A DNA stretch of 20,142 nucleotides from a virus. The notes below the pieces were generated by a model. The model worked only from the letters and a program-made list of their open reading frames with translations. It made no database searches and was not told the DNA's origin. The stretch is from the IMG/VR virus record IMGVR_UViG_3300023079_000012, positions 1-20,142 of that record. The stretch is one strand, 5' to 3'. Of this stretch, positions 1 to 13,051 are shown one piece after another. Numbering within the stretch: position 1 is the stretch's first letter; every line of letters starts with the position of its first letter. The position numbers and the translations under genes are program-made.

Positions 1-321
1 TGCCCGCGTGGATACGGGAAGACATCGTTCAGGATATGCGAAGCTTTGCAATACCTTACAATTCCTATTTACATTTCTGACGATCACATAATTCCTGGTG
101 GTTGGACATTACAAGGGAAGGCAACAGACATTCCACTTTTTAGTGGCGACGCCGAATGGATGGATATGTTCCTAGTTGAAACTTTGGATAATACATTTAA
201 GTCTACGGTATTTGGTTCTTTCGCAGATTTGATCGATCGATGCAGCGACATTTACTTTCAGTGGTACACATACGACGGACTTAAAAAACAGATACTCGAA
301 TGGTTGAAGCGTTTATCGTAG
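1..321 (+). CDS. C-terminal fragment of an exostosin-like glycosyltransferase (partial, 5' end outside window)
   Basis: The reading frame is open from base 1, so only the last 106 residues are visible; a TTG at 46 is merely internal. The first visible residues read CPRGYGKTSFR-x2-EALQ, followed by IPIYISD and a Pro a few residues later. This order (CPRG, S-F-R, EAL, IPV-like strand, D, P) matches the nucleotide-sugar-binding C-terminal motif of exostosin/GT47-type glycosyltransferases. Such enzymes transfer a sugar from a nucleotide donor. The remaining ~70 residues are helical with many aromatics and end in WLKRLS. The gene overlaps the next one, a second glycosyltransferase, by 22 bases, so the two are probably translated together. 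The acceptor is unknown. The family call rests on one motif in a partial protein. Confidence 0.6.
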   Translation, partial: CPRGYGKTSFRICEALQYLTIPIYISDDHIIPGGWTLQGKATDIPLFSGDAEWMDMFLVETLDNTFKSTVFGSFADLIDRCSDIYFQWYTYDGLKKQILEWLKRLS

Positions 322-1046
322 GTTGGAACGAAAGTGAGACTATACACCTCACGCTGAAGCACTACTTCGGATTCTGCGAGAAGGTGACTCTGTTCGACAA
401 CTACTCGAACGACGGAACGCCGGACATCGCCAGATCAATGGGTGCAGAGGTTAAGCATTTCGGAACGCCGGGTGTTCTATCCGACGACGACTACCTGACA
501 GTTAAAAACAACTGCTGGAAGAAGTCTAAAGCGGACTGGGTGATCATTGTAGATGCCGACGAGATTCTTTGGGATGGCCATAACCTGTACTCTGGGCCAA
601 CGACGGGAGATCACCTTTACAAGGCTAGTGATTCCGGTGCGACGATAATCAAAACTATTGGATTCGATGTTGTGTCTCATGAGATGCCAAGGCTAAACTT
701 CTTTGAGGTACAGAACGGATACCGCAACGAGAACTATTCAAAGCTTGCGGTGTTTAATCCGAAGGAGATAAAGGAGATCAATTACAAGTACGGATGCCAC
801 GTTGCTAAACCGACTGGTAATGTTGTGTATGCTGATAGCAGCCTGCTTCTAATGCACTATCGTAACATCGGTGGACCGCAGCGTCTTGTCGATCGACACG
901 CGCTATACAGGCCCCGTATGAGTGAAAAGAACAAGCGTTTCGGACTAGGTTGCCACTACGAATATTCAGACGAACAACGGGTAAAAGAATGGGAAGAAAA
1001 GTTCAGTGGATCGCAAGATTTGCTACTGCTTGGTGGTTTGTTATAA
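300..1046 (+). CDS. Family 2 (GT-A fold) glycosyltransferase
   Basis: This 248-aa protein starts at an ATG overlapping the end of the preceding glycosyltransferase gene. The N-terminus (MVEAFIVGWNE) is the first strand of a GT-A nucleotide-binding fold with the usual N-E pair. LFDNYSNDGT at residues 31-40 matches the D-N-x-S-x-D-G-T motif of family 2 enzymes. WVIIVDADEIL places the metal-binding DxD at D85-D87. A late MHYRN segment and a closing hydrophobic tail fit the Glyco_tranf_2_4-like group. It probably transfers a sugar from a nucleotide donor in the cytoplasm and has no membrane segment or signal peptide. Neighbouring virion genes suggest a virion protein or host surface glycan as acceptor, but phage DNA base modification cannot be excluded. 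The substrate is inference; the fold is well supported. Confidence 0.85.
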   Translation: MVEAFIVGWNESETIHLTLKHYFGFCEKVTLFDNYSNDGTPDIARSMGAEVKHFGTPGVLSDDDYLTVKNNCWKKSKADWVIIVDADEILWDGHNLYSGPTTGDHLYKASDSGATIIKTIGFDVVSHEMPRLNFFEVQNGYRNENYSKLAVFNPKEIKEINYKYGCHVAKPTGNVVYADSSLLLMHYRNIGGPQRLVDRHALYRPRMSEKNKRFGLGCHYEYSDEQRVKEWEEKFSGSQDLLLLGGLL

Positions 1047-1204: not shown

Positions 1205-1259
1205 CATGAATTGATACCGATTCCTTTTACATGCCCAGATACGCGTACTTTTGGGCACA

Positions 1260-3050
1260 ATGCGCCGTTCTAAAAGGAAATATAGCCCGTCAGTTTCATT
1301 TCTACCGGCAAGCGGGCCGCAAAATCTAAAGCGTGAGAAAGCAGTACCAGAGCAAAAGAACTGGTCAGAAGACACCATACGATACGGTGACGACGACGCT
1401 TTGCCTTTACGTATTGCCCAGGCGGTAGAGGAAAGCCCTGCGGCTTCATCGTGCACGGCAACGGTAGCGCAGTTTATAAAAGGGGCAGGATTCTCTGACC
1501 CCGCATTAATGGACCTTGTAATCGACGATACCGGCACCTCTCTTTGGGAGTTGCACGAGTCGTTATCGGAATGCTTGGCGCTGTTCGAAGGATTTGCGGT
1601 TAACCTAAAATACAACCCGAAAGGGAAAATAACCCAAGCGTACATGCTCGGGTTCGAGGGATGCCGGATGACAATGCCCGCTGAAGGGTCGCCGATAATC
1701 ACGTCAATCAAGCACAACCCATATTTTGGTACCGAACAATGGCGTAGGCACTACACCGAATGCTATCCGGTGTGGAATCCTAAAACCATCGACGACGAGT
1801 TAAAAGCTTCGCAATACAACGAAGACCCGGAATACAAAGGATACCCCGGACAGGTTTTCTACTACGGCAAAACGAGTCCCATCCATAGATTCTACCCTGT
1901 GCCTACTTTCTGGTCGGCACAGAAGTGGATCTACATAGACGGTAAGATCCAGACCGCGCACGCGGCCAACATGGACAACGGCTGGTTTCAGTCGGTCCTG
2001 TTGAAAATGATCGGAGATCCAAACGCGTGGTCAACTAATCCGAAATACGTCGATTCTAAAACAGGTAAGTCTACAAAGACTAATGGTCAGGAGTTTGCGG
2101 AGGACATGGCTGCAAATTTCTCAGGCTCGAAACGTATGGGCGGAGTAATGGCACTTTGGGGATTAAACAATGCATCACTACCCGAGGTTGAGCCATTCCC
2201 TACCAGCGCTAACGCTGATCTTTTCCTGGCATTACAGGACATCACCACAAAAAACATCACGATCGCACGCCGGGTTCCGCCGATTCTGGCGAACATCTCG
2301 GAAGGCGTATCGCTCGGCTCCGGTGGGTCTGAAATGCAGAAAGCGGTAGAGCTTATGCAGTCTCGGTGCACGCCGTTCCAAAAAGTGCTGATGAACTTTT
2401 ACAACAAAGTTTTGCTCCCTGGCATGGGTGTTCGTCTTACTGTTGACATTCAACACTTCACGCCGGTAACGACACCGGTTGAACTTGATGATAAGTTTTG
2501 GGACGTATTGACTGCCGCAGAAAAGCGGGAGTTTGTAAAGAAGAACTTCCCTTCGGCCCCTCTTCAGGACATCCCAGAGGCATCGGCTCCGTCACAGAAA
2601 ACACTTATCGAGGTTATCGGCGTAGGCGGATCGCAAGCTCTGATGGAGATACTTGCGCAGTACGCAGCAGGCACGGTTACAGAACCGCAAGCTTCCAATA
2701 TCCTACAGATACTTTTCGGCATCAAGCCCGAAGATGCGGCGCGCATGCTACAGAAAGGGACCACGCCAGCACCTGGCATGCCTGGTTCAGCTCCGGTAGA
2801 ACCCGGAGTAGTTCCCGATGTTATTGACCCAACAACACAGGAGAAGCCGGTTAGCGAAGCAATACGCAAGCTAACAGCTAAAGACCTTCAATTCATCGCC
2901 GGTATTCAAAGGAGGTACAACAAAGGAGAGTACACCTACGAACAGGCAAAGATTATGATACAGGGCCGCACGGGCCTTTCGGATGTAGATACAGACGTGT
3001 TCCTAGTAACCCCTGAAGAAGATGCCGCTGATACCACTACACTACCTTAA
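1260..3050 (+). CDS. Phage portal protein
   Basis: ATG at 1260 gives 596 aa; a TTG at 1251 would add three residues. The portal forms the dodecameric ring at one capsid vertex through which DNA enters and leaves. Near residue 45 is the segment I-R-Y-G-D-D-D-A-L-P, then a helix ending in an F-I-K-G-A-G-F strand, the normal start of Bacteroidota phage portals. Around residues 340-390 is RRVPPILANIS followed by a Gly/Ser-rich loop and a long helix with MQSRCTPFQ, like the portal stem/clip region where 'VPP' precedes a helix. A Pro-rich linker (about residues 500-525) leads to a short helical C-terminal domain. The length is typical. It overlaps the next gene by 29 bases, which fits a head-tail connector operon. 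The call rests on these motifs and on order. Confidence 0.78.
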   Translation: MRRSKRKYSPSVSFLPASGPQNLKREKAVPEQKNWSEDTIRYGDDDALPLRIAQAVEESPAASSCTATVAQFIKGAGFSDPALMDLVIDDTGTSLWELHESLSECLALFEGFAVNLKYNPKGKITQAYMLGFEGCRMTMPAEGSPIITSIKHNPYFGTEQWRRHYTECYPVWNPKTIDDELKASQYNEDPEYKGYPGQVFYYGKTSPIHRFYPVPTFWSAQKWIYIDGKIQTAHAANMDNGWFQSVLLKMIGDPNAWSTNPKYVDSKTGKSTKTNGQEFAEDMAANFSGSKRMGGVMALWGLNNASLPEVEPFPTSANADLFLALQDITTKNITIARRVPPILANISEGVSLGSGGSEMQKAVELMQSRCTPFQKVLMNFYNKVLLPGMGVRLTVDIQHFTPVTTPVELDDKFWDVLTAAEKREFVKKNFPSAPLQDIPEASAPSQKTLIEVIGVGGSQALMEILAQYAAGTVTEPQASNILQILFGIKPEDAARMLQKGTTPAPGMPGSAPVEPGVVPDVIDPTTQEKPVSEAIRKLTAKDLQFIAGIQRRYNKGEYTYEQAKIMIQGRTGLSDVDTDVFLVTPEEDAADTTTLP

Positions 3051-3567: not shown

Positions 3568-3925
3568 GCGATCATCGATAGACCCCGCACGCCGCGTGCT
3601 TTTGCAGTTCCGAATTAACCGGGACGGCACGCTACCTTTTGTATTTACGGAGAACTGTGAAGAAGTAGACATTACTGCGTGGGGATTCGAGCTATTCATA
3701 TCACGATACCCGGGGGATAGAAAGAAAATCATCACGTTGACGTTGGGCGACGGGCTGAGTATTCCGGTTTATGAAATCAATAAACTGGAAGCCTTCTTCA
3801 CCTCGGACCAAACCAACATACCAGAAGGACAATACTACTGGGAACTGTATAGGACAGATACGAAAGAAACCTGGCTTAATGGGTACGCGGACTTTACCTA
3901 TGGCCCTAAAGACGCGAAGTCATGA
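3560..3925 (+). CDS. Small beta-rich virion protein of unknown function
   Basis: This 121-aa protein overlaps the connector-like gene by 8 bases and the fibre gene by 4 (ATGA), so it belongs to the same translationally coupled unit. It begins with a basic tip (NKRSSIDPARR). Alternating hydrophobic strands follow, and then an ending in which PEGQYYWELYRTD is followed by WLNGYADFTYG. That hairpin-plus-'G-x-x-x-x-x-YG' ending is common in beta-sandwich phage proteins, such as baseplate or fibre-attachment domains. There is no signal peptide or membrane segment. Its position directly before the fibre suggests an adaptor connecting fibre to connector ring. No family was recognised with certainty. 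Confidence 0.6.
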   Translation: MNKRSSIDPARRVLLQFRINRDGTLPFVFTENCEEVDITAWGFELFISRYPGDRKKIITLTLGDGLSIPVYEINKLEAFFTSDQTNIPEGQYYWELYRTDTKETWLNGYADFTYGPKDAKS

Positions 3926-5304
3926 TAACGGTAGAAGTACTAGGCAAAGAAATTCACATAGGATGGATCGAAGGTGTTTCGGTGTCATCAAACGGCGTCT
4001 CGAAGGGTAAAACCAACCGGATAGACTTTGTTGACAGCGACAGCGTATCGTTCCACGTGGAACGCGTAGGTAACAAGATAACCGTATCAGCAACATCTTC
4101 GGGTGGTGGCGGAGGTGGAGGTCTTGACGCTACCGTTTCCGGTGGCGTTGAGCTGGTAGATGATAACATCACATTAGGCAGTGTGCTTATTCGTGACGTG
4201 CTTATCCCGGGCAATGACTTCGGTGCGCAGTGGGGTACGGACGATTCAAACATAGGCTTCTTCCGGTGGATAGGTAATAACTGGTCTGTGCTGTGGAGCA
4301 ACACAACTCTGTACTTCAAGTCTGCCGCCGGCTTCGGATTTGAAGGCGAAGGGAGTAGTTCTCCTGCATGGTTCAATAACCTGTCTGGTCTTGTGATAGG
4401 TGGCACAACGATTAACGGGTCATCTATCTTACAACTTATAAGCAACACCAAAGCATTCCTTTTCAACATCGTTTCAAGCCTTTCTGGTGTTGCCGCACCG
4501 GCCGAGGGTATGGTCGTAGGATCTGTCGAGAAGGATGACCTAATGCTTTATTGGAACAACGTCTGGACCGGCATTACCCGGCCTGAGATATTCGTAATAG
4601 CCGAGCAGAACTTCCTACTTGAAGAGAAACACCGTAACGCTGTCATTGTTATGACATACAACGGCATAGCTTCGGTAACTCCGACGCTAGGTCTTAGTAA
4701 AGGATGGACATCATTCTTTTATAAACAGGACGGCACTAACGATTATATCCAGATAACAGAAGGTCCATACCAGGATATCAACGCATTCAACATGCGGGTT
4801 TATGTCGGCGGGGCGGCAATCATTCACCAGGGAGCAGAAGTGTTCCTCGTTTCAGGATCGCTTGGTCCATTGGTAAGCCAGTCCGCTATTACTGCGGCTA
4901 TCGCAGTGGCAGCAACAGCCGCCGAGAACAATGCAAAGGCCTACGCGGACGACTTACAACGCATTCAAGTAGCGTGCTCTGACGAAACCACAGCCATCAC
5001 AGCAGGCACAGCAAAGGTAACATTCAGAATGCCGTACGCCGCGACTCTGGTAGGTGTTCGGGCCAGCCTTGCAACAGCTCAGGTATCCGGTAACATCTTC
5101 ACGGTTGACATAAACGAAGGTGGCACGTCGGTTCTTTCAACGAAACTTACCATCGACAACACAGAGAAGACTAGCACCACGGCGGCAACGCCTGCGGTAA
5201 TATCTGACTCTGCATTGGCTGACGATGCGGAGATAACCATAGATGTTGATCAGATCGGTAACGGAACCGCAAAGGGACTTAAAGTAACCTTGATTTTCGG
5301 ATGA
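3922..5304 (+). CDS. Tail fibre protein with conserved C-terminal receptor-type domain
   Basis: This 460-aa protein starts at the ATG of an ATGA overlap. Residues 1-60 form a beta-rich attachment domain. A run of seven glycines (61-67) is a flexible hinge often seen in fibres of Bacteroidota phages. The middle (70-330) is beta-rich with repeated short strands and Asn/Gly turns. A segment rich in Ala (near S-A-I-T-A-A-I to A-K-A-Y-A-D-D-L, about 315-347) looks like a trimeric coiled coil. The last 113 residues hold a domain with ACSDETTA, RMPY, FTVDINE and DNTEKTS, which I recognise as a conserved domain at the ends of many phage fibres. It probably forms a trimeric fibre binding the host surface. 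The next gene overlaps its stop. Confidence 0.75.
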   Translation: MITVEVLGKEIHIGWIEGVSVSSNGVSKGKTNRIDFVDSDSVSFHVERVGNKITVSATSSGGGGGGGLDATVSGGVELVDDNITLGSVLIRDVLIPGNDFGAQWGTDDSNIGFFRWIGNNWSVLWSNTTLYFKSAAGFGFEGEGSSSPAWFNNLSGLVIGGTTINGSSILQLISNTKAFLFNIVSSLSGVAAPAEGMVVGSVEKDDLMLYWNNVWTGITRPEIFVIAEQNFLLEEKHRNAVIVMTYNGIASVTPTLGLSKGWTSFFYKQDGTNDYIQITEGPYQDINAFNMRVYVGGAAIIHQGAEVFLVSGSLGPLVSQSAITAAIAVAATAAENNAKAYADDLQRIQVACSDETTAITAGTAKVTFRMPYAATLVGVRASLATAQVSGNIFTVDINEGGTSVLSTKLTIDNTEKTSTTAATPAVISDSALADDAEITIDVDQIGNGTAKGLKVTLIFG

Positions 5305-5912
5305 TCATAAACTCGTACATGTTCGGTAAGCTGTTGCTTCGTCTCAATTTTGGGATGAATGGGGCAGCTCCGTCTGTGGATGGGTGGAATAACATATGGG
5401 GTGAAAGCAACCCTGACAACGCGGCAGGAACTATTGATTGCAGCAGAACAAACACTGGCAACAACCTGTGGAGTCAGTGGTGCAACATTGCCGGTACAGG
5501 AATAAGCGTACGGTCAATAAACACTGGTAACGATACTACAAGCTGGGCGCGTGCCGCATTAAATACGGGGCAGTCAACAGGCAACAACTCGGGCATATAT
5601 CCAGATCTTGTTTTAACATCTTTCTGGTATGTAAACGCCGGCCAGGGCCGATTACAGATTTACGGCCTAAACGACGCGAAGACTTATAAAGTAACGCTGT
5701 TAGGTTCTCGTGATTCAGCCGTAGGTGGTTCTCGCCGGTCAATATTCACAGTCGCAGGAGTCGCTTTAACGGCGCTTCAGTGCATCGGTAACACTTCAAA
5801 CACAGTCAATAGAACAGGAGTCGCGCCAACATCAGGCGTGATCGATATACGTCTTGACAAAGACGACAATTCACTTGCATACATGAACGCTCTAGTTTTA
5901 GAGGAAGAATAG
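5301..5912 (+). CDS. Stand-alone beta-sandwich module protein, paralogous to modules in the giant tail protein
   Basis: This 203-aa protein starts with the ATG of an ATGA overlap with the fibre stop. After ten residues the sequence enters LLRLNFG, then a WNN-containing turn, an R-S-I-N-T strand, an IYGLNDAKTYKVTLLGSRD segment and a closing YMNALVLEE. The same order of motifs occurs three times in the following 1807-aa protein (residues ~912-1090, 1120-1288, 1630-1807), for example FTGLNNAKSYKV near the end of that protein. The fold is probably a jelly-roll like malectin or carbohydrate-binding domains, so glycan binding is plausible but not shown. There is no signal peptide. Its place between fibre and giant protein suggests it joins the same tail structure. 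Confidence 0.65.
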   Translation: MIINSYMFGKLLLRLNFGMNGAAPSVDGWNNIWGESNPDNAAGTIDCSRTNTGNNLWSQWCNIAGTGISVRSINTGNDTTSWARAALNTGQSTGNNSGIYPDLVLTSFWYVNAGQGRLQIYGLNDAKTYKVTLLGSRDSAVGGSRRSIFTVAGVALTALQCIGNTSNTVNRTGVAPTSGVIDIRLDKDDNSLAYMNALVLEEE

Positions 5913-5913
5913 A

Positions 5914-8900
5914 ATGGTAACATCACTCCTGCCGGGTCTCTCTTCGAGAGCATCATACGTAGTACCTGATCCTGTTAGAACTAACAGTGGATGGAGGTAT
6001 GCGGATGCCATTGACGCGGCGGAGATATGGAATGCTAACATAGGTGACTACATCATAGACGGTCCTAACGTAATAATCCAGAGACCGGGTGGATTGTTCG
6101 TTGCCATTGACATGAACCCCGTTTTTGGGAACCATAACGTTCCGGTGAGCTGGCCCAACAAGGTCATCATTAAGGGCGGTAACTACGGGTACGTAAAGCT
6201 TGAGACGCAATATTGGAACGGTAATTCTGACACTGAGCGCGTCATTATAACCAACTACGACGGCCAGATAAACTGCGGCGGCTTCAAAACTGCCATCGGT
6301 TTCGAGAATACCTGGGGCATGGCCGGGTCGGAATACTTCCGGCTAACAGGAAAGTACGACCCTGTGTTAAAGACAGGTGACCCTAATTTCCGTGGCCACG
6401 ATACAGGATACGGCAACAGCGCTGGCAAGTACGGTATTCGCTGCTCGATGAACTGGACTACTCAGGAGCAGTTCAATTTGGCGATAGGAGGTACTACTGC
6501 AGTAGGTATGGCTAACCACTTCGAGCTAGATTACATCGAGGTGTGCGACGGTGGGTTCGGGGTATCTCTTAAATGGGACAGCCCGCCAGCGTTGGAAAAC
6601 GAGGCGATGACCTACAAGGTACACGATTGCTACTTCCACGACATGGGAGGAGAAGGCGGGTACTACGGCCAGAACACGAACAACGGGTCTCACCGGATGG
6701 TCGATTGCAAGGTTTATAACAACCGATATGTACGCGTTGCAAACGAAGGACTTCAGATAGGGAACTACGCAGAAGGTTGTGACGTGCACAACAACGTGTT
6801 CGTAAACTGCGCCATGCGCTGGAAATCGCCTTTTCAGCCTTTCCAGGATCGAGCAATACAGGAAGCCACTAGAAACGGACCTGTATATTTTCAGAATAAT
6901 TTAGTTATCGGTTGCAGCGAATACTTCTTTGTCCTGTCAAATGCAAACGGCATTAACACGCCGCCGGACAATCCGATTCCAGGCAACAACATCATTGTCC
7001 AAAACAACCTGTTCTTCGGAACCAGGTATGAGGGTGTTTACATATTCTCGATCAACGACGGAATTACAGGATACGACTTCCTGGACAACTGGTTCGGATA
7101 CTTCATGGACAGCCTTTTACCGGCCAACATAAAGTACAGCTCAGTTTATCCGGCGAAGGTTGGCCCGGTCACACGGGTAGTTGACAACGATTGCGTAGAC
7201 GTTCCTATCTCATTCAAGCGTAACAAGTACCCGACTGGTATGACGTTCGTGGATGGGTTGACGCCTAACGTGACCATAGGAACCGGAATTGACGCGAACA
7301 CAGCGGTGAGCAGCCCGGTGTGGCCGGCATTCGTAAACCATGGATTCGAGCCTACTTACGCATACCTAAACCTTTCTCAGTGGTCTTCAAAGATCGGAGA
7401 AGAAGCCGGGTTCCCTGCATCAGGGACGAACAAAGGACAAAACAATGTATACAACTTCGGGGATTGGACTCAGCACAAGTCTGCAATCTACCGTTCTAAA
7501 ATAGACAACAATTTCGGGCATGAACCACCCGCCGGTACAAGCGACGCGTTCTGGGAACTGCAGTTGTTCAACAGCAGCACTACGACGCGTCCGCCGGATG
7601 ACTACCGATTAAAGGCTGAGGACGTTTACAACTTCCTGGGAATAGGGTTGCTCGACAACGAACCTGCCGGTACTCAGTCCATACAGCTTGACCTTACCGT
7701 ATTCGATCCGGTGTTCTTTGACATCACCGTGTTCGACCCGGTTGAAATCCACATTGCGGTTTCTGACGGGCTGAACAATACTGTGCGTTTCAACATCGAT
7801 TATCCTACTAACCTACTAACGAACGCGCCGCGCATCGTTGGGTTAGGGTCTTCGACAATGACAGGGGCTGGCGCTTCTCCCGCGTCTAACGGGCTTCCGA
7901 GCCTGCTTGCTGCGTGGGTTGACTCATACAGCGCTGACGGCGTATTCCTTGCCCAAGCGGTAAGCGGAACGTATTCTAACATGTACGTGCCTGACGGGAC
8001 CACTGCTCAAAGCGATTGGAACCGAAACATCGAAGCAGCCATGGCGCTAGATCCGGACATACTGATAGTTTCCCTGCCGTCGAATGATCCTTCGTTTAAC
8101 ACCAACGATGTATTCTTAAACAACCTCAAGACCATATTCAACGAGGCCCGGGAGCGGAACGTGTACTGTTTCATAACGACGACACAGCCCCGCACGGAGT
8201 ACGGACAGGATCTACAGCAGAAGCTTTATGACGCCATGCTGTTGATAAAGGCCGAGTTCAAGCAGTATGCAATCGACGTGTTTACACCTTTGGCAGACCC
8301 TTACACGGTTCAGTTCCCGGCACGCATAAAGGACATATACAACGCGGACACAATCCACGTAAACAACGCCGGGCACATTGTCCTGCGGGATACGATCATT
8401 GCCGCGCTGCAGGCCGTATTCATCAACAAAAGCTACCTGAAATACCAGATATTCAGGAGCACAAACGCTACAACAGGATTCGACCTTTGGAAGGATAACG
8501 TCACCCAAAACGACGTTTCGTTCTTCCGGGAAGATGATACAACATATTACTATCGTGTGCGTGCCCAGCGCTCCGACACTACATACACCGCGTACTCGAA
8601 CGTGGTAAGCCTCGATCAGGATCTTTTTGCCGGTGATGTGGTGCAGCGAGTATTTATCAACTTCGGCAATAGCACCAGGCCAGGGCCGGTGGTGGGGTGG
8701 AATACTCTGCTTCCTTCAGGAGATCAGCCTGACGCCGGGGAGGAATTCACTGGCATGAAAGACGTGCTGGATGCAGACACCGGTATAGGCGTTCGTATTA
8801 TTGGCTCTTTCGCAGGTGTTCGATCATCCGGGGGACGCGCAAGCGAGGACTACCCGCTTGACGTGATCCGAACGAGCTGGAGACTGGACGCAACGACAAA

Positions 8901-11337
8901 GGCTGAAATCGAGTTCTTTGGACTCGACCCGGCCTACTTGTACACTTTCAAGTTCCTGTCGTCATTCCAGAACATCGGACCATATTGGTACACCGGATTT
9001 GTTTCCGGTGAGAGAAGTGCCTACGTTCCTGCAAATGACCCTGTGTTGTCTTCTAACGATAGCAAGACGGCGGACCTGTATTCTATGCGCCCGGCTGGCG
9101 ATGGCACGCTGCGGGTCAAGATTAAAGCCCTGCCGGCAGCGGTGATCGGGTTCATGAACACGGTTAAGATCTATAAGCTTAACCTGAACAATGCTATCCC
9201 TATCGACATGGCCACGTTCAGCCCGGTTCTGTTTGAGCCTGTGTCATACAGATCAGGCACGACAAACGGGGTGATTCAGATCAACCTCACCGGCGCGGTA
9301 GATTCAGGCCTGGATGATTGGAACGACGTAAACGCCAGCACGACACAGACCTTCGGGAACATGATCACGTCGGCGCTTGTTAATACTGGCATCGGCATCC
9401 GGTTCGTTGGAATCGACAACAACAGAACCGACAACGACACGAACTACGCGGGTACTACCGAGTTCCCGACAGCAGTCATAAGATACGGTATCTACCGGTC
9501 CGGGAATCCTCCACCGCAGGTAATCCTGACCAACATCAAAGAAACTAAGCGACTGGACTTCCGGATCTTGGCATCACGACGGGATACGGATAATATACAG
9601 TCGATCACGATCGGAAGCATTACGCAAGAGGTAAACGTCTCGAACAACAAGACAAGCATTCTTGAGTTCCTGAACGTAGAGCCAGACAGCGAAGGTGATA
9701 TCGCAATGACGATTACCTACGTATCGGGTCCGTCCGTTGGGTACACTTACCTCACCGCAATGCGGGTGGAGGTAAAGGATGCCGACGCAAACGTTCCGGT
9801 TATCCTGCCAGTGACCACATTCGACGCGGTATTCTTCGATCCTCAGGTTCTGCAGAACAACATCATATTCGGGCTTACAACCTTTGATCCTGTATTCTTC
9901 CAGCCGGTAGTCGCTGAGGCGGGGGGTAGTGCAGCAGTTCTGTCCACAAACCAGGTGTACATAACCGGCACCACGGAGCGGGCTATGATCTACCAGCCTG
10001 CGGGTTATAACAGCAACTCTAACACTTATCCGTTGATGATCTACCTGCACGGAGCGGGTAGAACTATCAATACCGTATTAGGAGAAGGAGCACCGCTGAT
10101 GATCAATTCAGGCGACACCCTGGACAATGAAATGCTGGTGATAGCACCCGGAGCTCCGTCAGGTTTAACCTCATGGGGCATCACGATCAACGGCCAGATG
10201 CGGCCATTGCACGCGCTGGACTACATGATCGCAAACTATCGGGTAGACATTACGCGAGTTTACGTGACCGGTCTTTCCCTCGGTTCTGCCGGTTCTTGGC
10301 TGATGGCAGCCGCGGCACCTACCAGGGTGACGGCAGTATTCGCTGTAGCTGGTAGTCAGCCTATCGGCTACAGCTACGCGTCAATCCGTAATCTGCCGGT
10401 GTTCTCTTTGCACGGGTCCACCGATACAACACAGGACCGCGCCAATACTCCGCAGATGGCGTTTGCGATGAATTCACTTAGCCCTGCCCCGAAGTACCCG
10501 CCGATCATGATGATCATCTGGGGGGTAGGTCACAGTTCGGCAGTGTGGCATGACAACGCATACCGACGCAAAAACAGCCCTGTATCCGGAACGAAGGCCA
10601 AATACAATTACAACTGGTGGATGCTGAAATTCAGCAAAGACACTCAGAAAGAGGCATTCGGATTCGTGCAATACGCGGAAAGAACTCAGCTAATTGAGGA
10701 CTACATCCAGGCGCTGCCAGTGGTCAACGCGCTGCCGTCGTCGTCATTCAAGACCGGATTGCTAGGTCAACTGGCCGCGCTGAAGGCATCGCTGTACGCG
10801 CGTATGTTCATTGTCGACCTCGGATCTTCCACTTATCCCAGCTCATCACCGATCAACAATCTGACCAACATAAACAACGGTCAGTCGATTAACAACCTGG
10901 TTGAATATGACGGAGCCTCGTCAACAGTAGGATTGACAATCATAAACCGGTTTAGCACGTTCCTCCCGCAGACCGAGCACAGCGTACGGATGGCGGCGAA
11001 CTACTTCGGGTTGGGTGTTAACTTCAACCGCGACGGCGCACGTATGCTGACATCGATCACTAACGGATCGATGAAGTTCACAGGCCTGAACAACGCCAAA
11101 TCCTACAAGGTTGTGGTGTACGTAGGGATGGACAACGGCGACGACTTCGCCAGCCGGGCGGAAGCATCGGTAACTATCGGGGCCTCGACTCAGACCATGT
11201 ACGCGCAATACAGCGTGTTCCAAGGAATCATATTCGACTCCGTTACGCCTACAGCGGGAGAAATTACCATCGCGGCACGGGCATCACAAACCCGCGACGC
11301 GTGTATCACAGGACTTATTTTAATCGAAAAACCATAA
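5914..11337 (+). CDS. Giant multi-enzyme tailspike/depolymerase: beta-helix, SGNH hydrolase, Fn3, beta-sandwich modules, alpha/beta-hydrolase esterase
   Basis: This 1807-aa protein starts one base after the previous stop. Residues ~20-480 have the Asn/Gly-rich strand pattern of a right-handed beta-helix (polysaccharide lyase-like). At 510-550 lies a short segment ending P-P-A-G-T-S-D-A-F-W-E-L, resembling CBM5/12. Residues 637-835 are an SGNH hydrolase: GLGSSTMTG with likely nucleophile S647, PSND with N724, and D812-x2-H815 before AGH. Residues 840-900 look like fibronectin III. Beta-sandwich modules occupy 912-1090, 1120-1288 and 1630-1807. Residues ~1348-1576 are an alpha/beta hydrolase with HGAG (1379-1382), GLSLG with S1455, HGSTD with D1504 and GVGH with H1540. 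Short TTFDPVFFDP-like linkers stand at domain borders. It probably binds, deacylates and cuts host capsular or cell-surface polysaccharide during adsorption. No transmembrane segment is seen. Confidence 0.85.
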   Translation: MVTSLLPGLSSRASYVVPDPVRTNSGWRYADAIDAAEIWNANIGDYIIDGPNVIIQRPGGLFVAIDMNPVFGNHNVPVSWPNKVIIKGGNYGYVKLETQYWNGNSDTERVIITNYDGQINCGGFKTAIGFENTWGMAGSEYFRLTGKYDPVLKTGDPNFRGHDTGYGNSAGKYGIRCSMNWTTQEQFNLAIGGTTAVGMANHFELDYIEVCDGGFGVSLKWDSPPALENEAMTYKVHDCYFHDMGGEGGYYGQNTNNGSHRMVDCKVYNNRYVRVANEGLQIGNYAEGCDVHNNVFVNCAMRWKSPFQPFQDRAIQEATRNGPVYFQNNLVIGCSEYFFVLSNANGINTPPDNPIPGNNIIVQNNLFFGTRYEGVYIFSINDGITGYDFLDNWFGYFMDSLLPANIKYSSVYPAKVGPVTRVVDNDCVDVPISFKRNKYPTGMTFVDGLTPNVTIGTGIDANTAVSSPVWPAFVNHGFEPTYAYLNLSQWSSKIGEEAGFPASGTNKGQNNVYNFGDWTQHKSAIYRSKIDNNFGHEPPAGTSDAFWELQLFNSSTTTRPPDDYRLKAEDVYNFLGIGLLDNEPAGTQSIQLDLTVFDPVFFDITVFDPVEIHIAVSDGLNNTVRFNIDYPTNLLTNAPRIVGLGSSTMTGAGASPASNGLPSLLAAWVDSYSADGVFLAQAVSGTYSNMYVPDGTTAQSDWNRNIEAAMALDPDILIVSLPSNDPSFNTNDVFLNNLKTIFNEARERNVYCFITTTQPRTEYGQDLQQKLYDAMLLIKAEFKQYAIDVFTPLADPYTVQFPARIKDIYNADTIHVNNAGHIVLRDTIIAALQAVFINKSYLKYQIFRSTNATTGFDLWKDNVTQNDVSFFREDDTTYYYRVRAQRSDTTYTAYSNVVSLDQDLFAGDVVQRVFINFGNSTRPGPVVGWNTLLPSGDQPDAGEEFTGMKDVLDADTGIGVRIIGSFAGVRSSGGRASEDYPLDVIRTSWRLDATTKAEIEFFGLDPAYLYTFKFLSSFQNIGPYWYTGFVSGERSAYVPANDPVLSSNDSKTADLYSMRPAGDGTLRVKIKALPAAVIGFMNTVKIYKLNLNNAIPIDMATFSPVLFEPVSYRSGTTNGVIQINLTGAVDSGLDDWNDVNASTTQTFGNMITSALVNTGIGIRFVGIDNNRTDNDTNYAGTTEFPTAVIRYGIYRSGNPPPQVILTNIKETKRLDFRILASRRDTDNIQSITIGSITQEVNVSNNKTSILEFLNVEPDSEGDIAMTITYVSGPSVGYTYLTAMRVEVKDADANVPVILPVTTFDAVFFDPQVLQNNIIFGLTTFDPVFFQPVVAEAGGSAAVLSTNQVYITGTTERAMIYQPAGYNSNSNTYPLMIYLHGAGRTINTVLGEGAPLMINSGDTLDNEMLVIAPGAPSGLTSWGITINGQMRPLHALDYMIANYRVDITRVYVTGLSLGSAGSWLMAAAAPTRVTAVFAVAGSQPIGYSYASIRNLPVFSLHGSTDTTQDRANTPQMAFAMNSLSPAPKYPPIMMIIWGVGHSSAVWHDNAYRRKNSPVSGTKAKYNYNWWMLKFSKDTQKEAFGFVQYAERTQLIEDYIQALPVVNALPSSSFKTGLLGQLAALKASLYARMFIVDLGSSTYPSSSPINNLTNINNGQSINNLVEYDGASSTVGLTIINRFSTFLPQTEHSVRMAANYFGLGVNFNRDGARMLTSITNGSMKFTGLNNAKSYKVVVYVGMDNGDDFASRAEASVTIGASTQTMYAQYSVFQGIIFDSVTPTAGEITIAARASQTRDACITGLILIEKP

Positions 11338-11341
11338 TTTT

Positions 11342-11764
11342 ATGCCTAGCTATTTAACAAATAAATACAAAGATCTTACTCTCAATGGAGACATAGATCC
11401 CATTGCAGATACCATTAAGATCATGGCATGCAATCAGTTCACTGTGAATGTTGCAACACAGGACTTTATCAACTCGGTGTCTTCGAACCAAATCACCGCG
11501 ACGGGGTACACTGCCGGTGGGCAGACGCTCACGAGCAAAGTGATTACTCGTGACAACACCGACAACCGGGTGTACTTCGACTTCGCGAACCCGTCATGGA
11601 CGATCACCGGTACGATGACAGCGCAGACGTTTGTGATATATAAAGACACCGGAACGCCTGCAACATCGCCGATAATTGCCATCGTCGACACAGGGGCTCC
11701 ACAGTCACGGACAGACGCCGACTTTGTTCTACAGCTTAACGCGAAAGGCATCTTTGGAATCTGA
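11342..11764 (+). CDS. Small phage virion (tail-associated) protein
   Basis: This 140-aa protein begins with ATG four bases after the giant gene. The order of motifs is familiar from small structural proteins of many phages. It opens with NKYKDLTLNGDIDPIADTIK, continues with a D-F-I-N-S-V strand, ATGYTAGGQTLTSK, a DNTDNRVYFD strand, VIYKDTGTPATSPIIA and ends LQLNAKGIF. The family is usually 120-150 aa and beta-rich. It has been annotated as structural, fibre-associated or unknown, and I do not know its exact role. It may decorate or assemble the preceding giant tail protein, since it directly follows it. Its stop overlaps the probable TTG start of the next gene by 11 bases. Confidence 0.7.
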   Translation: MPSYLTNKYKDLTLNGDIDPIADTIKIMACNQFTVNVATQDFINSVSSNQITATGYTAGGQTLTSKVITRDNTDNRVYFDFANPSWTITGTMTAQTFVIYKDTGTPATSPIIAIVDTGAPQSRTDADFVLQLNAKGIFGI

Positions 11765-12182
11765 TTCTTTAGACGTCGTAAAGCAGGTAATCGACAAGTT
11801 ACCTTCAAGCTACTGGGCTGAAAAGGAGCCTTGGAAGATCATTGTCATGTGCTGGACGGTGTTTAATCTACACTGTCTTGAGCCGGCTGTTTTGATCTTG
11901 TGCCTTAAATTCCCCGGGGTAGCTCATTGGTTCCGAAGACTGGCTGAGGACAGCGACGACAAGCCAAACCTAAAGGACGCGGTTACGATTGTACTAATCC
12001 TATTAGTGCTTTGGGCCGGTCGCGGGTTCGTCATTGTGGGGATATGGTGGTGTATTTTCCAAGAAAACCAGGGTGGCTTAATGGGAGTTTTAGCGGGATT
12101 CATTGCGGCATTGCTCGCAACATCTATATTTACAGGACAGAAAACTTTAAACGATTTGAACCATGTCGAAAACAAAAAGTAA
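11754..12182 (+). CDS. Small membrane protein, holin candidate
   Basis: The frame has an ATG far upstream at 11676, but that part reads as a shadow of the previous gene. TTG at 11754, preceded by AAAGG, gives 142 aa beginning MESDSLDVVKQV. The N-terminal ~25 residues form an amphipathic helix. Hydrophobic segments lie near 28-51, 76-102 and 107-125, separated by a charged loop (R61 to K74), and the C-terminus is polar and basic. Two to three membrane helices, a charged tail and a place just after the virion genes fit a holin, which makes the inner-membrane hole for lysis. No known holin family was recognised, so this is inference from topology and position. It overlaps the tiny gene downstream. 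Confidence 0.6.
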   Translation: MESDSLDVVKQVIDKLPSSYWAEKEPWKIIVMCWTVFNLHCLEPAVLILCLKFPGVAHWFRRLAEDSDDKPNLKDAVTIVLILLVLWAGRGFVIVGIWWCIFQENQGGLMGVLAGFIAALLATSIFTGQKTLNDLNHVENKK

Positions 12183-12246
12183 ATCAGCCGAGGAAAAGCC
12201 GACCAACCCTCCACCGAAACCACCAGGAGGCAAAAAGTCAAAGTGA
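12163..12246 (+). CDS. 27-aa Lys/Pro-rich peptide ORF
   Basis: An ATG at 12163, inside the end of the membrane protein gene, opens a 27-codon frame reading MSKTKSKSAEEKP, then a short NPPPKPPGG stretch and KKSK. Its TGA at 12244-12246 shares a base with the ATG of the next gene (TGATG). An AGGAGG within its own 3' part (12225-12230) could serve as the ribosome site for that next gene. The product has ten Lys, no hydrophobic segment and is disordered. Overlap on both sides is the pattern of translational coupling, which is the main reason to call it. It may be only a spacer that couples the two membrane proteins. Confidence 0.4.
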   Translation: MSKTKSKSAEEKPTNPPPKPPGGKKSK

Positions 12247-12635
12247 TGCGGGATAAGTACATCTTATTTTGCCTATTCCTCTCCACCATTGTGATGGTAG
12301 TCTATGGGCTATTCCCAGATGGTCCGGAGAGGGATTACTTTTTGTTTGCGGATCAGCTAATCAGCTTGGAGTCCTACGTGTATTACGCGCAGGAACACGT
12401 AAGCCGGGCGATCTTAATCTTTGCGCTTCTACTGGCTCTGCCGGAACATAGGCGAATCATGTGGGTATTTTTTGCCCTGGAAATCGTAACGCTGATTGAC
12501 TATGTTGTCCGATACAATCAGGATATAATCGTATCAGGCTTTAACATCGACACCATTAAGCTGGTGGTATACGGTACGCTTATTTTATCAGCTATGAAAG
12601 GCAACAATCAACGGCTATATGGGGGAGCGACGTGA
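12246..12635 (+). CDS. Multi-pass membrane protein of unknown function
   Basis: ATG at 12246 (129 aa) overlaps the stop of the preceding tiny ORF; a GTG at 12243 would add one residue. AGGAGG lies 12-15 bases upstream. Hydrophobic segments are visible near residues 6-23, 56-69, 72-91 and 104-118, suggesting three or four membrane helices. The loop at 25-50 contains several acidic residues and the C-terminus is short and basic. The gene lies between a holin candidate and a DUF5675-like gene, so a role in lysis or its control is possible (second holin, antiholin). No family was recognised. The stop overlaps the next GTG start as GTGA. Confidence 0.6.
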   Translation: MRDKYILFCLFLSTIVMVVYGLFPDGPERDYFLFADQLISLESYVYYAQEHVSRAILIFALLLALPEHRRIMWVFFALEIVTLIDYVVRYNQDIIVSGFNIDTIKLVVYGTLILSAMKGNNQRLYGGAT

Positions 12636-13051
12636 GCAACTTGTATCTCGGGTTATTGATCGGATTTGTTTTGGCTTCCTGTCTATGGTTGCCGGGGTTC
12701 GTATTAGCGTACCGGAGAGTCATCCGCAAGAAGATGGCGGAGATAGAATATCTGAAGCAGGCGCACCAAGCGGAGTTCGCCGACATGATTCACAGGATGA
12801 ACCACGAGGGGCCGATAAAGGAAGGGTCAAGCGCTCATGGGCTGACGTATCTTATTTTATGGGCAGTCGAGAATTCTTTGATAATCTTGGAACAGCTTTA
12901 CACGAAGCAGGACTGGAATACAATGGAAGCTATTTCGAATCTGCGCGGCATCGCCATGGTGGAGCTACAGATGTTGCACCAAAAACTGGGCGACTTCCTG
13001 GAAGCTAAGAGAAATGTGTTGAGGGATTTCAACAGACAACAAGGGTTATGA
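12632..13051 (+). CDS. N-terminally membrane-anchored helical protein
   Basis: This 139-aa protein starts at GTG within a GTGA overlap; GGGGGAG ends about five bases upstream and supports this start. Residues 2-26 form one hydrophobic helix followed directly by YRRVIRKK, so the long C-terminal part is probably cytoplasmic by the positive-inside rule. From residue 34 on it is almost entirely helical with charged and hydrophobic heptads, including a less charged helix at about 70-88. This topology differs from a periplasmic spanin. It could be a holin partner or lysis regulator, or unrelated. An overlapping frame (12619-13008) is also open but reads as a shadow. The next gene starts in its ATGA stop. 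Confidence 0.55.
   Translation: MSNLYLGLLIGFVLASCLWLPGFVLAYRRVIRKKMAEIEYLKQAHQAEFADMIHRMNHEGPIKEGSSAHGLTYLILWAVENSLIILEQLYTKQDWNTMEAISNLRGIAMVELQMLHQKLGDFLEAKRNVLRDFNRQQGL

Follow-up and report, generated by a model that had tools for sequence, protein, structure and literature searches.

A candidate tail-borne depolymerase of a probable Bacteroidota phage with a beta-helix and two unrelated esterase domains in one polypeptide

The CE6 domain is of the SGNH type. Fused CE6-CE1 double esterases of Bacteroidetes raise backbone cleavage by xylanase, and in the B. ovatus enzyme the two domains were shown to act in intramolecular synergy (PMC7110780). Acetyl esterase activity has been measured for SGNH tail fibres, and some tail proteins of this type, G7C gp63.1 and Klebsiella prophage fibres, remove acetyl groups but do not depolymerise (PMC13123978). 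Vibrio phage Peru-2, which depends on acetylated exopolysaccharide, has a beta-helix, pectin-lyase-like tailspike (P2_41) and a virion GDSL esterase (P2_42) (PMC13320782); VPS acetylation was also reported (PMC11637428).

Here we describe P0001, an 1807-residue predicted multi-enzyme protein encoded in an IMG/VR record of 20,142 bases (the window, meaning the whole stretch analysed). In Peru-2 the activities are divided between two separate proteins with one esterase, whereas P0001 is one chain with one more predicted esterase. The CE6-CE1 enzymes, which are found in PULs of F. johnsoniae and B. ovatus, have CE6 N-terminal to CE1 in a single chain and act on polysaccharide decorations (PMC7110780); however, they are cellular, lack a beta-helix and have plant xylan as substrate, and the SGNH domain of P0001 was assigned as SGNH, not as CE6. 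The SGNH tail proteins (G7C gp63.1, Aristophanes gp41 and Klebsiella prophage 164_08 and 174_38; PMC13123978, PMC11058221) have complete SGNH catalytic residues, as does the tail candidate P0001, which adds a beta-helix and a second, unrelated esterase and whose SGNH sequence relatives are secreted Bacteroidota enzymes. Beta-helix tailspikes (P22, Sf6, CBA120 TSP2, Klebsiella Depo32) share with P0001 the fold (Z 19-20.5) and the position among structural genes. P0001 differs from them by two extra esterases and three beta-rich modules, by having no recognised particle-binding or trimerisation domain, and in that its nearest sequence relatives are cellular secreted and prophage-like proteins. 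Finally, T9SS proteins of Cytophagales (WPO38840 and an ORF of locus L010) combine a homologous alpha/beta-hydrolase, beta-rich module and beta-helix in one polypeptide, but are non-viral, lack SGNH, have another module order and carry a signal peptide, PKD repeats and a T9SS sorting domain. The features of P0001 are as follows.

5914..11337, plus strand: P0001, 1807-aa predicted multi-enzyme protein (open frame; full-length match, 89% identity, in a second virus)
6001..7428, plus strand: right-handed beta-helix, residues ~30-505 (PF13229; VIA-align; cellular and prophage homology)
7429..7695, plus strand: cap at the C-terminal end of the beta-helix domain, residues 506-594 (conservation in prophage-like L057/L058 and in L073 stops at the same point)
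7696..7746, plus strand: junction motif TVFDPVFFDITVFDPVE, residues 595-611
7828..8418, plus strand: SGNH/GDSL hydrolase, residues 639-835, with S647, N724, D812 and H815 (PF13472; PDB profile; Foldseek)
8419..8643, plus strand: short FN3-like segment, residues 836-910 (by eye)
8644..9183, plus strand: beta-rich module, copy 1, residues 911-1090 (hhalign to family profile, probability 97.6%, E 3e-12)
9211..9239, plus strand: junction motif ATFSPVLFEP, residue 1102
9265..9783, plus strand: beta-rich module, copy 2, residues 1118-1290 (hhalign 97.6%, E 3e-12)
9814..9905, plus strand: double junction motif TTFDAVFFDP ... TTFDPVFFQP, residues 1303 and 1322, before the alpha/beta-hydrolase
9934..10644, plus strand: CE1-like alpha/beta-hydrolase, residues 1341-1577, with S1455, D1504 and H1540 (4q82 profile; VIA-align)
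10798..11334, plus strand: beta-rich module, copy 3, residues 1629-1807, at the C-terminus (hhalign 92.6%, E 5e-7)

The frame at 5914-11337 is uninterrupted. A strong RBS-like sequence, GAGGAAG, lies at 5901-5907 inside the 3' end of the upstream gene, and P0001 starts directly after the stop codon of that gene (5910-5912). The window is identical across 19,334 bases to part of a 43.9-kb contig (IMGVR_UViG_3300022917_000017, L001), and the whole of P0001 is present in a second virus (IMGVR_UViG_3300037439_000033, L002, 46.3 kb). No match to whole P0001 was found by tblastn in 50,697 phage records. Searches of viral contigs with a single sequence or close alignments returned only these same two viruses, and more distant viral homologues were reached only with alignments that mixed in cellular homologues. 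A plasmid search yielded mostly alpha/beta-hydrolases and one multi-module cellular relative. P0001 has no hydrophobic N-terminal stretch that would qualify as a signal peptide, nor, in Pfam, the Por_Secre_tail domain for T9SS sorting, which is present in the cellular loci L008 and L073; no adapter or trimerisation domain was recognised with Pfam or PHROGs.

The N-terminal region was confirmed as a right-handed parallel beta-helix by Pfam and homology together with a predicted structure. In the family alignment PF13229 (Beta_helix) matched 7 of 10 members, with a best E of 1.4e-9, P0001's own copy staying below the cut-off (E=0.0021). The AlphaFold2 model had a low mean pLDDT of 43, the value for both structure models of P0001 parts, with 60-77 in its best core blocks. 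Plain Foldseek gave no strong match among solved structures for the beta-helix/SGNH model (best E 0.014), besides one weak match to a viral esterase, and the fold was then settled by VIA-align, which matched RbmB (Z 23.6, 3.8 A, 287 residues), alginate lyases and AlgE4, the phage tailspikes mentioned above and NosD (Z 19.4), all within Z 19-24. A PDB sequence search with the beta-helix profile returned nothing up to E 1, and no GH or PL family could be assigned. Five residues (H237, Y240, H242, E247 and Y250) are kept from the phage protein through cellular T9SS proteins, and they showed no correspondence to a known active site. The Asn/hydrophobic periodicity was weak (lag 28-29, z ~2.5) and hence was not used as support. 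In 395 Bacteroidota genomes the beta-helix was matched at 1e-8 only once; thus, this subfamily is rare. By eye, the cap at 506-594 resembles CBM5/12.

Residues 639-835 were confirmed, by sequence and fold comparison, as an SGNH/GDSL hydrolase domain with predicted esterase activity. PF13472 matched residues 644-821 above its gathering score (E=1.2e-10), a PDB profile search found 4ppy at 6e-8, and Foldseek gave probability 1.00 to TesA-type folds (E ~0.01-0.03). S647, N724, D812 and H815, as well as the block II Gly, are invariant across five cellular SGNH homologues that are 35-38% identical. The FN3-like segment that follows is also found in cellular L029, whose match spans residues 631-924.

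For the alpha/beta-hydrolase, phmmer detected 4q82 (7e-10), 3wyd and 3doh, and the profile match to 4q82 reached E 5e-44, S1455 being aligned to the nucleophile position of 4q82, where the residue is given as X (modified). The predicted fold matched CE1-type esterases in VIA-align (Z 18.6, 2.9 A, 215 residues), the match being the B. thetaiotaomicron feruloyl esterase BT_4077. The domain thus has the nucleophile elbow GxSxG, a Ser-Asp-His triad and the alpha/beta-hydrolase fold, and S1455, D1504 and H1540 are invariant across eight cellular homologues (30-34% identical). Curated cut-offs were missed by NF050058 (48.6 against 150 bits), TIGR01840 (36 against 107.85) and PF00756 (15.9 against 22), and therefore the domain was assigned at the superfamily level only. 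As sequence evidence for the two predicted esterases, the invariance of all seven catalytic residues in homologues only 30-40% identical is stronger than a motif match.

The beta-rich module, of ~170-190 residues, has no Pfam family and occurs also in Cytophagales secreted proteins. A PDB profile search produced only a weak match, to the Lap adhesin 6xi3 (E 1e-4, 38 positions). We regard it as an undescribed module, probably of a binding type and with glycans as its presumed ligand. A fourth copy, at 5331-5909, makes up nearly the whole upstream 203-aa gene. FDPVFF-like motifs stand at three domain junctions of P0001; they are strongly conserved between the window virus and L002 and, among the loci compared, were found in these two only. 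It is possible that they are spacers or marks of recombination.

These results bear on a first-pass annotation, which had placed a beta-helix, an SGNH hydrolase and an alpha/beta-hydrolase in a single polypeptide at 5914-11337. The single chain is borne out by the frame and its conservation in L002, the three folds were recognised correctly, and both sets of catalytic residues lie where they had been put. Its proposed range of 1-600 for the first fold did yield a beta-helix but was slightly too wide, because residues 506-594 form a separate C-terminal cap; the beta-rich modules, the FDPVFF-like motifs and the modular exchange described below had been overlooked. Its reading of a virion-borne machine that first deacylates and then cleaves a host capsule is supported in part, with the virion location, catalysis by the beta-helix, the order of the steps and the capsule as substrate all standing as predictions.

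P0001 lies in the following gene order.

1251..3050, plus strand: portal protein (phrog_11226, E 1.4e-36)
3922..5304, plus strand: 460-aa protein two genes upstream of P0001, probably a tail or fibre component from its position (phrog_27064, function unknown, E 4e-6, in the last 100 residues)
5301..5912, plus strand: upstream 203-aa gene, almost only the fourth beta-rich module
11342..11764, plus strand: 140-aa phage protein directly downstream of P0001 (phrog_644, function unknown, E 3.5e-28)
11676..13051, plus strand: three small ORFs, probably the start of a lysis region (from their position and from hydrophobic stretches seen by eye; no family matched with confidence)

The remainder of the 43.9-kb contig encodes a terminase large subunit, a head maturation protease and a virion structural protein, and L023/L024 contain terminase, head protease and head-type matches. 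P0001 is located between the structural genes and the probable lysis region, and gene packing around it is as tight as in the structural genes. A large sugar-gene cluster was noted between the head genes and the portal (window 1-1046; L001:9-3133; L024:275-3658), with epimerase-like, glycosyltransferase-like, FkbM-like methyltransferase and fucosyltransferase-like genes by eye. Of 14 portal relatives in phages, 13 belong to phages named for Bacteroides, Parabacteroides or Tenacibaculum and one to an unassigned faecal phage, and weak portal relatives occurred in 7 of the 395 Bacteroidota genomes. The portal relatives therefore suggest that the host is likely a member of Bacteroidota, in agreement with the first-pass annotation.

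Several relatives contain parts of the P0001 architecture. WPO38840 (L008, CP139022), a T9SS-sorted protein of Flammeovirgaceae SG7u.111, has the alpha/beta-hydrolase, the beta-rich module and the beta-helix, each ~28-29% identical to P0001, in the order hydrolase, PKD, module, PKD, beta-helix. In the 1848-aa ORF of L010 the module is present three times, together with hydrolase and beta-helix; this record (PBYL01000129.1) is titled as a Thalassovita MAG, but its order is that of a Cytophagales genome and the title is probably wrong. In L061/L049, a secreted-looking cellular ORF of 1121 aa has the same SGNH followed by an alpha/beta-hydrolase; this precedent is weaker, since its alpha/beta part was recognised by eye from motifs of the HGxxG and GxGxAG type and Pfam did not report it. 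Modules are joined to SGNH in L043, a beta-rich module, PKD and SGNH share one 1815-aa protein in L066 (a 108-kb viral contig), and the viral or prophage-like loci L069 and L070 have the alpha/beta-hydrolase alone. In a Cytophagales genome, two genes with the full beta-helix domain (L057 and L058; 29% and 28% identity, E 4e-39 and 1e-37) are located inside prophage-like tail-fibre/endolysin clusters. In the products at L057:8023-11271 and L058:6374-9643, an N-terminal part of 500 residues resembles, by eye, a polysaccharide deacetylase, with no Pfam or PDB match. In addition, Sec-type signal peptides, which are unusual for virion proteins and absent from P0001, start several (pro)phage tail-fibre-like ORFs (L057:6577-16162, L058:761-14206, L066:3966-9413, L070:2066-11371).

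Within the limited set of collections searched, where the large genome scan scored two candidates per genome and so under-counted architectures, no chain other than P0001 and its L002 relative had beta-helix, SGNH and alpha/beta-hydrolase together. Within these collections the chain of all three folds plus three binding-type modules is thus new, each fold being ordinary and each pair having a precedent: alpha/beta-hydrolase with beta-helix in T9SS proteins, SGNH with alpha/beta-hydrolase in the cellular ORF and in CE6-CE1 enzymes, and beta-helix with GDSL in Peru-2. The earlier impression that two unrelated esterases with a beta-helix are unusual consequently applies to the triple but not to its pairs.

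Between the window virus and L002, identity of P0001 was 99% in residues 1-137, 64% in 221-505 (the middle of the beta-helix), 79% in 641-745 (the N-terminal half of SGNH) and 94-100% from 836 on. Over the alpha/beta-hydrolase and the beta-rich modules, many synonymous and few non-synonymous changes gave a dN/dS of ~0.02-0.06. Such a distribution of identity is expected if the host-contacting parts change while the rest is constrained: the attachment end would be under constraint, the face in contact with glycan would change, and the tail with its esterase and binding modules would be conserved. The pattern rests on two genomes, which cannot separate selection from recombination, and recombination could be its source, because synonymous sites are saturated in the divergent parts. 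The gene upstream offers a related observation: the L002 orthologue of the 203-aa protein is 720 aa long (L002:5837-7999) and shares with it both the start and the beta-rich module, but between these two parts an SGNH domain (PF13472 5.8e-5, below cut-off; SASA 0.016) and a LamG-like stretch (by eye) are inserted. This cassette is absent from the window virus, which suggests that the neighbourhood of P0001 gains or loses esterase cassettes.

Taken together, we consider it probable that P0001 is a tail-borne, receptor-binding depolymerase of a siphovirus-like Bacteroidota phage, built from modules that Bacteroidota use in secreted polysaccharide-processing enzymes, its virion location, activity and substrate all being predicted. 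P0001 would most likely attach to the particle through its N-terminal part, in which residues 1-137 hardly vary. The beta-helix would bind, and probably cut, a polysaccharide of the host surface or of a biofilm. O-acyl decorations of two kinds, which would otherwise block the beta-helix, would be stripped by the SGNH and CE1-like esterases, and the three beta-rich modules might hold P0001 on the glycan or space the enzymes. Deacylation would then help cleavage in this presumed order of action. This proposal draws on the three folds, the triads invariant in distant homologues and the position between structural and probable lysis genes; on the divergence of the beta-helix middle and the N-terminal half of SGNH beside the nearly fixed remainder; on the lack of a signal peptide and T9SS tail, unlike in cellular L008 and L073; on the beta-helix homologues in tail-fibre clusters (L057/L058) and SGNH with the module in viral L066; and on the precedents of SGNH tail-fibre acetyl esterases (PMC13123978) and CE6-CE1 fusions (PMC7110780). 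Against it stand the failure to recognise an adapter or trimerisation domain or a GH/PL family, the conserved polar residues of the helix being matched to no known active site, the pLDDT of 43 of both models, and the basis of the divergence pattern in two genomes, where recombination could produce it.

The beta-helix might instead not cut, and P0001 would then be a receptor-binding, deacylating adhesin in which the helix and the beta-rich modules bind and the esterases remove acyl groups. G7C gp63.1 and the Klebsiella prophage fibres behave in this way (PMC13123978), beta-helix folds are also found in non-catalytic proteins such as NosD, and no GH or PL family was found; however, the top structural matches are catalytic lyases and epimerases (RbmB, alginate lyases, AlgE4), and the conservation of the polar residues H237, Y240, H242, E247 and Y250 from phage to T9SS proteins suggests an active site, so that we regard such an adhesin as unlikely. 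We give still less credence to a soluble, non-virion enzyme, freed at lysis, that would loosen host exopolysaccharide or biofilm for progeny spread. P0001 does adjoin the probable lysis region, its cellular homologues are secreted enzymes rather than structural proteins, and no adapter domain was recognised. On the other hand, the gene follows the structural genes with equally tight packing, residues 1-137 are conserved as expected of an attachment site, and prophage-like homologues occur inside tail-fibre clusters, although none of these points is decisive. That P0001 is a recombination relic, i.e., strung-together host secreted-enzyme modules with some enzymes inactive, appears very improbable: the same modules do occur in other orders in cellular proteins, and a cassette was gained or lost in the neighbouring gene, but the frame is intact in two viruses, dN/dS is low over the alpha/beta-hydrolase and beta-rich modules, and all catalytic residues are kept.

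Returning to the predicted depolymerase, a broader suggestion is offered tentatively, as possible but rather less than probable: Bacteroidota phages might build virion spikes from host secreted polysaccharide-enzyme modules, yielding a one-chain kit for decorated glycans (a cutting beta-helix, two chemically distinct deacylases and several binding modules), with esterase cassettes swapped in the neighbouring fibre gene. If active, P0001 would link backbone cleavage and the removal of two kinds of decoration in a single phage receptor-binding protein, by the same logic as CE6-CE1 enzymes on xylan, and would suggest that phages take depolymerase parts from secreted enzymes of their hosts. It would also offer a natural multi-enzyme scaffold for acylated exopolysaccharides and a ready test of capsule acylation as a barrier to phages in Bacteroidota.
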